Shown here piece by piece: positions 926 through 63,547 of a DNA stretch of 64,000 bases. Origin of the DNA: Nannobrachium achirus. Its lineage: Eukaryota; Chordata; Actinopteri; Myctophiformes; Myctophidae. The stretch is taken from NCBI GenBank assembly GCA_963921795.1, contig OY997659.1, forward strand, positions 22,010,159-22,074,158. Reading direction: 5' to 3'. Both the position numbers and the translations under genes were made by a program. The stretch's first letter is position 1. Each line of letters starts with the position of its first letter. Under the pieces are notes generated by a model. That model worked only from the letters and a program-made list of their open reading frames with translations. It made no database searches and had not been told where the DNA came from.

Positions 926-1807
926 CATGCCCCAGGCCCCCCACCCACTGAAATCAAAATACTAAAATCGCTAAAACAATAGAAAGCAGTAAATGAAAAC
1001 ATTTTAATGCTCATCTTTTCTTTTCTCTAATTACAATCTAAAATATGAACCTTCTTGTGAAAAAACAAAGTTGTCCTTTAAGCCCTCTTTTATACTTTAA
1101 GAATTAGCAAAAATATCTGATCTACAAGCTTAAAATGTGTTGTGATATATGATGCATTTCTTTTTGAATTTGGGGGAAATTGTTTGAAATCGATTTAGAT
1201 CAGCACCCTAGACTTTACAGCAATTCATACATACAGTATAAAGTACAGTAGGCCTATATCGTCAAGAATACTGTACTGGGGCCTTGATAGTCTGTAGTAT
1301 TAAAATATTTTCTTTTTCTTTTTCTGTGCTCTCCATCCCCATTTCTCACTCCCACTGTCATCCTGGCACAACCCGAATAAGTTGACAGGAGAATTCTGTC
1401 ACTACAGCTAATATTAGATAGGAGTCTCAGAGAAATTCTCCCCTTTTTCTCTTCCCCTGTCCTCCTCTGTCATTCCCACTGATATGTCGTTCCAGAGTCC
1501 CACTAGAACTAATTAAATGCTAGGACTGAGTGGTGAAGGCATTTGCTGACAGGGAATGTCAACAGTGAACCTTCATGACAACTATTTCCATAGTCTTGGT
1601 TGGCTTTGTTAGCTAGGCAACACTGCCCTCCAGTGGTCATTGCCTGACATGCAGTTTCTCTAATTCAGTTTACATGCAGAAAGAGCCCAGCAGTTTCCTG
1701 TTTAGATCAAACAAGTGTGTTATAAAGAAAGATGCAGCCTGGCAAACAGAGAGTATCTGGTAATAAGTACTGTGTGAATAGGGTTATAGATAAACAATGT
1801 GCAAAAC
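926..1807. other. no gene seen; AT-rich, unique-looking
   Basis: No supported open frame, RNA gene or clear transposon end. Near 1114-1145 there is a degraded match to the GATCTACAAGCT hairpin motif listed among the findings. Confidence 0.5.
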
Positions 1808-1814
1808 ATTAGTA

Positions 1815-1990
1815 TCGAATGAATGAATGAATATTTTATTTTATTGACCCATCCCATATGAGATTATCAGACACATAAAATAAATCTGTAAACAAAGACA
1901 GACATTCCAGTGCAAACTCCGCCAACAGCTAATACGATAGGCCTACATATATTCATACGGGCCTGCACATAGAATATATAAAGTTAAACA
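1815..1990 (-). mobile_element. possible 5'-truncated LINE 3' end
   Basis: Read on the minus strand, an AATAAAATAAAATATT stretch is followed by (ATTC)n. This resembles the poly(A)-signal plus short tandem tail of non-LTR retrotransposons and the better supported LINE tails at 39.0 and 56.76 kb. The 5' limit is not visible and no reverse-transcriptase residues can be read. Confidence 0.35.
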
Positions 1991-2099
1991 TTTAATGTCA
2001 ATATGTGGAATCAGCATGTGACGGCCAGGAATAATAAATATGAACTTGTAATAACTGCAGAGGGATAAAATTAACATTTAAACTCAATGAATTAAAACA

Positions 2100-2750
2100 C
2101 CTGTACAGAGTTATCAACTGAGAAATGTAGCAACAAAATTCATCATTTCAGTGAAAAGAAATGTACATTTGGTGCAGAACAGGGAAACGGGTTGACAACC
2201 TTTTTGACATGAAGTGCCACATTTTCATTTCAAGTCACAGTGTGCTATAGCAACATTAGATTATTTAGACACCACATCAAAAATTATATTTCAAACTGAT
2301 TCTAATTGTCCATATAGGCTATACATGACAACCTTTTTTGTCCCTTTGTCACATGCAGCAAAAGAGAGATCTTTCATTATTTCTTTATTCATTCCTTTTT
2401 TTTCCTCCCAGTTTCGGAATCAGATGTACCAGACACCTAGTACTCATCCAGATCAGAGAACTCAACATCCTCGCCTTAGTACTCTAAGCCTGGAACCCTG
2501 AACCGTAAACCCCTAATGCCTCCCCAGCCCTTGACAAACTGAGACCGCTTCTGAATTAAGACACCTGTACACAACTGTGCTAAAACTGTACATTCAGTGC
2601 AGAACAGTGAAACAGGGCAACCTTTTTGACATGAAGTGCCATGTCTTCATTTTCTTGAAAGTCTGCCATCAACATTACGTTTAATTATGACACCACGTCA
2701 AATAATTATATTTCCAACTGATTTTAATTGTCCATAGGCTATACATAACA
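2100..2750 (+). repeat. imperfect direct repeat, spacing about 460 bp
   Basis: The segment at roughly 2100-2335 recurs at roughly 2565-2755. Shared phrases include CACCTGTACA, GTGCAGAACAG, CAACCTTTTTGACATGAAG and AACTGATTNTAATTGTCCAT. The GGGTTGACAACC at 2191 and the GGTTGTCTACCCCTGG at 3057 look like opposite ends of a decayed hAT-type element of about 0.9 kb, but no target duplication was found. Confidence 0.6.
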
Positions 2751-60323: not shown

Positions 60324-61028
60324 CAGTACACGGACAGTGGTGGGCAAGGTACATACTCAATTAAATAATAAAGACAAGTATTCAAAAGGACCGATCATGA
60401 AGTACATTTTCCTTTTCATATCAATTAACTGCTGTATTGATAGGCTATAGAACATTAAAAAAAAATGTGAAAATTGCAGATCTACAACCTCATGTAAGAA
60501 TAGTGCAAAAAAAGCTGTTTGTGTGTGCGCGTGTGTATGTGCGCGCGCGTATGCGTGCGTATATGCATGGACTGTATGCAAGCATGTGTGTATGTGTACA
60601 GTATACAAGGTTGCGAAGGGGTCTGAATAGGTGATTTTTCAGACTTTCAGGATTTCAGATATACCTACTATATACAGTAGGTGGAGAAATGCACCGGTTT
60701 ACAGTCTGGCACAGAAACAGACATGCAGACAAATGGAAAGAAAAACTGACAAACTGAGAGGCCAAGTGAGACTTAGACTACACTACACCTCCCATGTCAG
60801 CCCAATGAGCTATTTATACTGTATATTCTCAAAATCTTACACAAAAGGACGCCTTCAGCTATACCGTTTCAATGTATAGGCTTTTCTTCCCCCAATCGCT
60901 TACATGTTATTACTTAGATAATTATATTTTTAGATGGGAATGTTTGGTTTGATCAAGAAGAGATTCCCACAAGTTTACACGCTTATTAAAAACCCAAAAC
61001 CCACTTAAACTTAAAGGTATCCCTAGAG

Positions 61029-61288
61029 CAGGGGTTCCCAAACCTTTTTGTCTCAGGGCACCCCATGAATATCTTTTTAATCCGAGGCACCCCTACATTA
61101 TAGTTTTCACTCCCAGCAGCTTATATTTATAGCAGATCGTCGTGGTTGGGTGGAAACCTTGTATGTCCAAAACCGTTCGTTTTGTATTTATCATCTATAA
61201 AATGTACTAAACTAGTGAAAACAGCAGATCTACACGCACACAACGCCTCGCATCTGGGGTGCCCCGTCACCCACTTTGAAAACCCTTG
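61029..61288. mobile_element. 260-bp hAT MITE with perfect 8-bp duplication
   Basis: Starts CAGGGGTTCCCAAACC and ends GAAAACCCTTG. CCCTAGAG flanks both sides (61021-61028, 61289-61296). A half hairpin motif lies at 61217-61250. Confidence 0.9.
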
Positions 61289-61520
61289 CCCTAGAGGTCA
61301 ATTGTAATAACTAAACCGGACAATCCTCTAAGGGATCTAAATGCTATGGGTATCTCTTCATACAGAAACTACCCTCGGAAGATAGCCAGGCAAGACTATA
61401 GCACCATGCTAATGAACGAGAGGGAGAACAGGCCTCAGGGATTTGCATGGTCTGTCATTATCAGTAACCTCTTTAACTGTCAGAGCACACAGCCTACAGG
61501 CAGCACTGACAAACTATACA

Positions 61521-61649
61521 GGCACACACACACACACACACACACACACACACACACACACACACACACACACACACACACACACACACACACACACACA
61601 CACACACACACACACACACACACACACACACACACACACACACACACAC
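61521..61649. repeat. (CA)n microsatellite
   Basis: Pure CA of about 128 bases, the longest pure tract in the window. Confidence 0.97.
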
Positions 61650-63547
61650 GTTAACAAGCACAAACAGATAAACAAATGGGTTGTGGTTCTTTTTAGCAGT
61701 CAGACTATTGATGGTTCAAGTGGTTAAATGTCTAAAAAATACACATTAGACCACCAACCTACACTGATGATAGTGCTGTCAATCAAGTCTACTCTGTCTA
61801 TGAACATCTTTAATCTCCAACACAATTCTATACAGTATGTAGTGGGTGTCCCTGCTTTATCACTCTCTCAGCTAAGGGGGCTTTGGCCTGAAAATGTTGA
61901 AGACCCCTGTCCTAAAACACATACTGAACCTCTGTGTAGATGTAGCCCATACATATAGGCGTAGACACACACACACAGACACAGCCTCAGGGCTCCACTC
62001 AGAGATACAAGCTAGCATTTAGCTCTTCAAACGCAATCCTGTTTGTCATGTCAAGATACAAAGAGGTTAGGATGGTAAATGGTGCATGTGTGTGGATAAT
62101 AGTAACCAGCAGTAGAGGGTTTATATAGGGTGATGGAGTATACAGTAGCTCAAAGTAATAGGCCTATTATCCACTAGGTTAACGGCACATAAAATAATTT
62201 ACATTAGCCCACTGTTATCAGCTGAAACATTAAAGTGATGTACACATTAATGCAATTACATTCCAAGAATATGATTTTGAAACAGGCCATTCTACATAGC
62301 CTAATGTAATAGATTTTCTACAATTGTGGTATTGCTAAATACCAAAGTACTAACCAACCATTTGTCACCATTGTACAGTTTCAGTGCTAACACAATGCTG
62401 GAGTCAGTATGTATGGTCTAGCAGAGTTCACACATTTTAGTGCAACAGTTTATCAAACTAATAGATATAATCGATAATAAAAGATAATTGATCATTTAAG
62501 ATTAAAATAATTGATTAATCATCGATCCCTACTTTGGTTCATGTCATTATAGGTGAAAAGTTTCAAAAAACAACAATTAAAAATAGTGAAAATAACAGAT
62601 CTACAAGTTCGCATCACATCAAGACTTGCTGAGCTTGCCTTATAGCCTTAGACCTTCTATTTTTCAGTACTTTCCCACAATACTTTTGTGCAAAAGTATA
62701 AAATATGGCTTAAGTGGTTATTAGATTCAGTGACATACAATAAAGAAATAACAACTATATATCGAAGAAAGTGATCAATAGACCAATATAATTGCTGAGA
62801 AAATAATCGATTATTGCAACCCTAAACACATGGCCGTTGGAGTAGGGTGTAGCCACAGCGGGACCAGGTGTGACAGGCTGTCCGTAGCGAGGAACGGTAA
62901 CCAGGATACTGAAGAGTGTGAGCCTTCCCTTCCTCCGGCTTTAAACAAATATTGACTGGAGCTGCAAGCTGGGACAAACAGGCTCACAGCTACACAGCTA
63001 AATAATGAAGGTGCAGGACAGGTTTTCACATAATGACTCTATCTACACTGTACAGTATGACACATAATCTATGTGAAGGCCGTGATGTTTTAGCAGCTTT
63101 CTGAGGCGATTTAAGAATGGATGGAGATTGGCCAGATGGATCTGATTCAGAAAGAGCACACATAGTATTGAGTAATGGACATTTTCCTATTTACTTTACA
63201 TTGAAGTGCTCCATGAACTTAAATATTGCTGTTACCAGGCCTGGTTAGTAGTACATAGTAGATGAAGAGTTTGGGATTATCTGCTTCTAAAATGTACTTC
63301 AACAATATAACCCACTGCCAAAGCACTGGATAATTTCCTGACTGGTTGGTAAAAGTGATTTATTTCCTGATATTATTTCTCTTTTTATGAAGACATGTCT
63401 GTGCATATAGTCTCAGGCTGAGCTGTATAGTCTAGATTAGAACTACACAGACTAGCCTGAAGTCTATTTTTCCAAACCTTTTTTCGATATGCAAATATGT
63501 ATGTATCAGTTATTCCAATGAAAACATTTCGCAACTGAAACCGGGGT
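61650..63547. other. no gene; decayed hAT ends
   Basis: ATTAATCATCGATCCCTA at 62514-62531 and CGATTATTGCAACCCTAA at 62808-62825 resemble hAT ends in the same orientation. A hairpin half copy is at 62587-62612. No coding region. Confidence 0.4.

Follow-up and report, generated by a model that had tools for sequence, protein, structure and literature searches.

A palindromic hairpin carried within several types of MITE in Nannobrachium achirus

Small hairpins with a common arm are scattered through a 64,000-nucleotide stretch of the Nannobrachium achirus genome (the window), which raises the question of whether they are a part of related hAT MITEs or a tiny mobile element of their own. The family in the window is real. 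The arm 20-mer AATAGCAGATCTACAAGCTC has 15 matches there with at most three mismatches, compared with 0 in 100 shuffles. Across the genome (1.66 Gb) the exact 20-base arm occurs 134,293 times and its reversed control 0 times, and 40,006 places carry both 13-base arm cores in the hairpin arrangement (the strict two-armed count; control 0); broken copies are more numerous still. The zero counts in the shuffles, the reversed-arm search and the two-arm control rule out a chance origin of these numbers. With up to three mismatches, arm density is 550 per Mb across 20 ten-kb stretches versus 234 per Mb in the window, and hits of a covariance model occupy approximately 60 places in 200 kb (counted from 117 strand rows). 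The hairpin is a near-perfect palindrome that usually measures 67 bp from arm to arm, within a module of about 67-77 bp. The original prediction described the core arm as continuing into CACAACGC; many copies do have this sequence after the arm, but what lies further inward is family-specific. The arm 20-mer and six 15-16-mers are absent from open PMC text, and a search of the same text found no named element that fits the hairpin, in agreement with the prediction.

All five full hairpins predicted in the window were recovered by the covariance model, which was trained on copies including one of the five. The weakest hit (7810..7871, E 4e-4) is a shortened hairpin within a hAT-type MITE at about 7560-8035, which has alignable relatives and which we take to be of the CAGTGGTGTAAAGT class. 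The full hairpin of family Y at 23906..23997 was also read directly; its palindrome extends outward (GGTGTTGCA..TGCAACACC), and both sides fall in one half-flank cluster. Two hairpins that have lost their centres, at 47114..47175 and 47405..47468 (E 5e-13 for the second), match F5 elements and seem to form the opposite ends of a single F5-like element. The fifth, at 59877..59939, is a shortened family C hairpin within a hAT-type element (59757-60323). Seven of the predicted half or decayed copies were found by the arm search. Those at 1112..1131 (plus strand) and 11631..11650 (minus strand, exact arm) lie in no recognised host family. The copy at 28885..28904 (minus) belongs to a decayed T/F1-like element (28808-28952, 69% identity), and the host of the copy at 29654..29673 (plus) may be a decayed T-like element, to which it matches weakly. 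The other three are on the plus strand at 60472..60491, 61220..61239 and 62591..62610; the second of these is half of a family D copy (61139-61252) whose other half is missing at what resembles a hAT end. For the two weakest copies the letters themselves were inspected. At 41246 they are TTTTGAAAATAACCGATCGAGT, a remnant arm AATAACCGATC followed by AAGTGGTTAA (41246..41288), which resembles the end of a TTAA element. At 58250 they are GCGTTGCGACGCGTTGTGAGCTTGTAGAC, a half copy on the minus strand (58240..58270) with an F3-like flank, as judged by eye.

Several hAT-type MITEs, family D and one PIF/Harbinger-like family are among the hosts. The window element at 59757-60323 carries the 8-bp duplication CAGTACAC (8/8) together with a CAGTGGTTCTC end, which bears out the claim that copies lie within different hAT types. 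Target duplications of 8 bp were observed in five of ten labelled pairs, comprising this element, L025 (8/8, with one extra base), and L023 and two L028 copies with the same flanks (7/8); the other five match poorly. Terminal inverted repeats form CAGTGGTTCTCAACC and CAGGGGTCTTCAAC pairs of the CAGNGG type, which we assume to mark a hAT class; the hAT3 and hAT5 hosts are labelled solely from their end sequences. The family of locus L047, presumably PIF/Harbinger, was found at 22 places (query included) that are 100% identical across 269 bp, with TWA (TTA or TAA) after the right end, the only end concerned, in seven of nine readable copies. Most aligned hosts have the hairpin at their centre and not near an end, and its position is fixed within each aligned family. 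The proposal of a subterminal hairpin of hAT MITEs is therefore correct as to the hAT hosts but not as to the usual position, and it omits the TTAA-ended, D-type and PIF/Harbinger-like hosts. The copies clearly do not all share a constant position in a single hAT consensus, so the idea withstands the refuting condition that the original prediction set for it.

Five T elements of 158-209 bp have TTAA ends and a single hairpin in the middle, and F5 elements of 585 and 621 bp have TTAA ends and two hairpins, between which hAT-type ends are located. T is also nested within hAT MITEs of family F1. At locus L067 an F1 copy contains a single TTAA and no T, which is a precise empty site. This copy shows that T moves into or out of a TTAA site as a whole, with its central hairpin included. 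L067 is the one clear empty site among two hits, and F5 is known from its TTAA ends alone. F1 MITEs multiply the nested T a second time. The TTAA target and the precise empty site of T are as expected of piggyBac. However, T starts with CCAC and F5 with CCCA, and not with CC[C/T]T, the terminal motif stated for TTAA/piggyBac-like coral CMITEs in the accessible text of PMC2872659. A search for an autonomous piggyBac partner (116 scored transposase matches of 952 candidates) recognised T or F5 ends at 0/6 loci read. Arm matches, one of them a full hairpin, lie near three of these six transposase loci, as neighbours rather than demonstrated element ends.

The hairpin has multiplied along with its host elements, at a fixed place in each aligned family. 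We consider it probable, at roughly 65%, that the hairpin is an internal passenger module common to many non-autonomous DNA transposon (MITE) families of this genome. Repeated flanks surround 61 of the 66 full hairpins, a figure composed of 56 that share a flank cluster, among 65 whose flanks could be read on both sides, and five that match other copies, partly by eye (L016_7568, L017_6833, L036, L050 and L011_9912). The five hairpins outside this count are L001, L015_7181, L017_2831, L021_4560 and L047, of which L047 has since been found repeated and L001 has local copies. The three largest flank families pair 21, 9 and 4 times. One flank cluster has a different partner three times (L026_1523, L026_4374 and L052_368), and 14 further mixed pairings occur once each. 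These mixed pairings may reflect elements that swapped halves at the hairpin. Spread between families would proceed through nesting and through capture when gaps are repaired, aided by abundance. An ancestor lacking the hairpin was found for none of the families. The apparent empty sites of families C and D and the c5 relative at L011:8778-9144 were rejected as true empty sites and are read as deletions, because hairpin scraps remain in them. To find one module in several superfamilies is unexpected if it is no more than a passenger.

The arms co-vary around a block of ~29 bp that is conserved across families whose ends and flanks differ. Between families, 22 of 41 pairs are altered on both sides, with a covariation score of 0.286 versus 0.137 when shuffled (0/500) and at most 0.081 when slid; 33 other hairpins gave 0.786 versus 0.664 (0/2000). 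Arm-to-arm conversion, template switching in the palindrome or selection for pairing could each produce this pattern. Across families the ends have also diverged more than the internal region, as in the coral CMITEs. It is possible, if clearly less probable than simple carriage, that the hairpin is retained as a cis-acting sequence, such as a host-protein or transposase site or an enhancer of transposition or replication, which would make carrier MITEs more prolific; the conserved block may aid transposition or bind a protein. In the accessible part of their report, the authors of the coral CMITE study suggest likewise for their conserved internal region (PMC2872659). Consistent with such a role, arms vary less than flanks within families (0.028 versus 0.141 in F1, 0.075 versus 0.224 in D and 0.087 versus 0.170 in C), but this comparison is biased by the selection of copies via their arms, and the F5 flank figure of 0.497 reflects misalignment. 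Similarly, 28 T copies have 36 changes at 952 core sites versus 23 at 280 tip sites, but they were hand-picked by their outer flanks and the tip contains CpG. The partial loss of the hairpin from most F1-type T copies also weighs against a retained function. A more speculative and still less probable proposal is a portable amplification module, in which a palindrome of 70-80 bp would move or be captured among hAT-type, TTAA-type, PIF/Harbinger-like and D-type elements, boost their multiplication and renew its own symmetry by restoring one arm from the other.

Among F1-type T copies with exact flanks, about 31% are near full length and most have lost parts of the hairpin; 1,700 T copies share the outer flanks with 0-92 bases between them. 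Microhomology of at least 2 bp is present at 54 of 136 deletion junctions versus about 15% at random, and 34 of the 136 deletions are symmetric versus 8% expected. Symmetric losses that use AGCT account for 7 of 78 copies with longer gaps. Deletion removes the centre, in many cases between short repeats, and would give rise to the half and decayed copies.

We regard as unlikely the other proposal of the original prediction, that of a small hairpin mobile in its own right. In the form considered here, a present or former nano-element would insert where TA forms the middle of a short AT-rich palindrome (GAAAA-TA-[GC..hairpin..GC]-TA-TTTTC), and the flanks, which are complementary and differ by family, would represent palindromic targets. 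The flanking sequences are indeed complementary to each other, and the hairpin occurs in several superfamilies. Moreover, the precise hairpin-less junction AAAATATTTT recurs in family C (6 of 88 short copies, 3 identical) and in T (7/76, plus 3 near forms carrying an extra TA), in different arm backgrounds. However, a deletion between two TA words would also produce AAAATATTTT, AGCT yields similar symmetric losses, and the commonest family C junction (10 of the 88) is a 5-bp microhomology deletion. In 30 representatives, one per flank-pair family, direct repeats of 4 or 8 bp at the hairpin edges (offsets 0-13) did not exceed the maximum seen in shuffles, a test in which a TA duplication is indistinguishable from the palindrome. 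At a single boundary (offset 2), 3-bp direct matches occur in 5/30 versus 0.9 expected, with a shuffle maximum of 4. The repeated flanks around 61/66 full hairpins likewise oppose independent insertion. It is very improbable that the selected form is a transcribed RNA hairpin (a small-RNA or hpRNA source): strong folding (about -42 kcal/mol, z -14 to -17, three hairpins, DNA parameters) and compensatory arm changes would suit it, but palindromic DNA equally predicts compensation, and the hairpin has no Rfam match at the gathering threshold in the window and four loci.

Angel, a zebrafish MITE, is said to have hairpin potential. By description it resembles the present family as a high-copy fish MITE, but its copies, put at 10^3-10^4 in the available portion of PMC2579443, are far fewer. 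The repetitive hairpin-forming elements of sponge mtDNA are likewise short hairpins, dispersed through a genome that they invade (PMC2800124); also compared by description, they differ in being mitochondrial, and the accessible text does not describe them as DNA-transposon cargo. The best reading places the present family close to the Acropora CMITEs (Wang et al. 2010, PMC2872659). In the accessible text of that paper, CMITEs have differing terminal repeats around a common conserved internal region of 75 bases and form six families, all TTAA/piggyBac-like with CC[C/T]T ends, of about 1,600 copies; a TTAA target, an empty TTAA allele that shows mobility, tandem arrays and the origin of a new element via nesting are also reported. 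The conserved inside with varying ends, the TTAA target, the empty TTAA site, the tandem arrays and the nesting are shared, a likeness judged from description. In contrast, the module here forms a near-perfect hairpin whose arms co-vary and crosses superfamilies in 40,006 strict two-armed copies, whereas the coral region is described there without a palindrome.

MITEs that keep a common interior while their ends change were described in corals, in the one paper found, and left unexplained in its accessible text (PMC2872659). In this genome the common interior is a hairpin that spans superfamilies and is very abundant, so whether internal sequence drives the success of MITEs can be tested here with great power. 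In addition, the 1,700 T copies record a spectrum of centre deletions, a natural experiment on the fate of a palindrome in a vertebrate-like germline.

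The coordinates that the original prediction assigned to the hairpin family were correct, both on direct reading and with a covariance model run on the window. The 20-base arm occurs 15 times in the window at up to three mismatches, compared with none in 100 shuffles. The exact arm is present 134,293 times in the 1.66 Gb assembly (reversed control, 0). We sampled 10 kb at the 10.00-Mb position on each of contigs 1 to 20 and found, in these 20 stretches, 110 arms at up to three mismatches (control, 0) and approximately 60 covariance-model places, hand-counted from 117 strand rows. 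The density of the exact arm is 95 per Mb in these stretches versus 81 per Mb genome-wide; extrapolating the model matches of these 200 kb by this ratio very roughly gives 0.4 million whole or broken hairpins in the genome. A strict count finds 40,006 hairpins with both arms. At G000:C1:26719-34618, four hairpins whose centres resemble one another lie approximately 2–3 kb apart, which suggests that a repeat carrying the hairpin is arrayed in tandem there. At L012 (7342-7361 and 8748-8767), a 19/20 arm match without a hairpin lies in a tandem-repeat region, which may include an intron-exon junction, and is either a coincidence or an exonised arm. Separately, window 46134-46208 (minus strand) matches the mir-1788 microRNA precursor (79.3 bits; gathering threshold 57). 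G000:C2:71346413-71843994 has what looks like transposase-derived genes clustered in tandem: 16 matches to piggyBac-type transposase fall within 0.5 Mb, every one on the plus strand, and for 15 the open frame exceeds 500 aa.

Among 50 full hairpins from the window and loci L001-L028, the arm-to-arm length is exactly 67 bp in 26, shorter in 18 and longer in 6, and the three hairpins that were folded form near-perfect stems. Alignment of 20 hand-picked hairpins with 11 labels, including the T relatives F1-F3, distinguishes an outer tip and a centre that are each specific to the family from a conserved block of approximately 29 bp. The arms vary jointly in the tips and the centre: both sides are changed in 22 of 41 pairs, and the covariation score is 0.286 versus 0.137 when shuffled and no more than 0.081 in the slid controls. 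Centre pairing in 33 other hairpins, chosen by 13-bp cores and a 53-bp length, is 0.786 versus 0.664 shuffled, a value reached by none of 2000 shuffles. Arm homogenisation is incomplete, because one conserved-block position is unpaired in 11 of the 20 aligned hairpins, mostly through an A/C difference between the arms. Outward of 47 hairpins, a set with several copies per family and F5 the most numerous, base identity is mostly gone beyond 3 bases; left-right flank complementarity exceeds expectation at offsets 4–6 and 8–10, and not at 7.

The hosts of the hairpin are diverse. Their superfamily names are our presumption from ends and duplications. The small TTAA-ended element T (ends TTAACCACTTGAACC..GGTTCAAGTGGTTAA; 158-209 bp) carries one hairpin, at a distance of 47-51 bp from the nearer end and 72-95 bp from the farther. 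F5 (585 and 621 bp; TTAACCCATTTAGG ends) has one near each end, with hAT-type ends located between the two, and window hairpins 47114 and 47405 appear to belong to one F5-like element. The hAT-type family C (CAGTGGTTCTC ends) is represented by window 59757-60323, which is flanked by an 8-bp duplication, CAGTACAC. In F1, T is nested inside a hAT MITE with CAGGGGTCTTCAAC ends. D (TGTCGGGTGGAAACC ends) has no superfamily assigned, Y is a further host family, and two more hosts were called hAT from end sequences alone. At window 41246-41288, the end of a TTAA element comes after a remnant arm; the two may be the surviving tail of a T-like element.

Most of the full hairpins studied lie in repeated flanks. 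We studied 66, many from loci picked by exact arm. Both flanks could be read for 65, of which 56 have a flank cluster in common with another copy, and five more match other copies, partly by eye; five (L001, L015_7181, L017_2831, L021_4560 and L047) lacked a repeated flank in this comparison, of which L047 was later found repeated in a flank search of the genome. In the largest flank families, pairing is seen 21, 9 and 4 times. A second partner is taken by one flank on three occasions, and a further 14 mixed pairings are single cases, some of them adjoining apparent truncations or inserts. With one hairpin for each of 30 flank-pair families, direct repeats of 4 or 8 bp did not exceed their shuffled maximum at any of 14 boundary positions of the hairpin edges. 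Direct matches of 3 bp exceed it at one position (5/30 versus a maximum of 4), an excess that might come from short palindromic words. L067, an F1 hAT copy, holds a single TTAA (CTTTTTTATATTAAATATC) where other copies hold T between two TTAA; therefore T enters or leaves the TTAA site as a unit, and L067 fits insertion and excision alike. A second match, L068, has no left flank and was left out of the count.

Deletion of the centre, as seen in T and C, accounts for the half and decayed hairpin copies. T copies bounded at each side by the exact 17-bp F1 flank number 76, 585 and 1,039 with 0-30, 31-61 and 62-92 bases between the flanks; 51 of 100 listed among the longest class differ from full length by no more than 2 bases, which puts the near-intact share at about 31% of the 1,700 copies. 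A single deletion accounts for 136 of 154 typed shortened copies (all 76 of the shortest class and 78 of 100 listed among the 585). Microhomology of at least 2 bases is present in 54 of these 136, where random breakpoints predict approximately 15%. In 34 (8% expected) the deletion is symmetric around the hairpin centre: 11 without microhomology, 10 at TA, 7 at AGCT and 3 at GC. In C, deletion between CTATT repeats is the most frequent loss (10/88). The junction without core, AAAATATTTT, is seen in several backgrounds of C (6/88) and T (7/76) and might be read as the original palindromic target of a TA-specific nano-element; however, a deletion between two TA words, one of the symmetric-loss series, predicts the same junction, so we keep this improbable reading as a rival only. 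Within families, the arms, by which the compared copies had been found, are less variable than the flanks. Among 28 T copies, hand-picked from a set that the outer flanks had selected, there are 36 changes over 952 sites of the conserved block versus 23 over 280 of the tip, where a CpG adds to the changes; this weakly suggests some constraint or conversion.

In the L047 family, the flank gave 40 scored matches among 735 candidates; over 269 bp, 22 places (counting L047's own) show 100% identity. The arm was found in 12 of 12 additional copies fetched, the right arm lacking its outer bases (GATCAGGGAAC). TTA or TAA follows the right end in 7 of 9 readable copies, a feature that we take to resemble PIF/Harbinger elements. 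One copy (L066, ~950-1330) has an insert of approximately 380 bp with GGCTGTTTCTCAA ends in its hairpin centre.

The letters of the hairpin were not found in a search confined to open paper text. As far as its accessible text describes them, the closest known relative is the coral CMITE group, whose families have differing ends, a common internal region of 75 bases and TTAA, whose nesting gave rise to a new element, and whose internal region was left unexplained in origin (PMC2872659). Compared with that region as described there, the module of N. achirus is set apart by its palindromic form, its co-varying arms and its span across superfamilies. Given the identical L047 copies, it resides inside at least one recently multiplied family.
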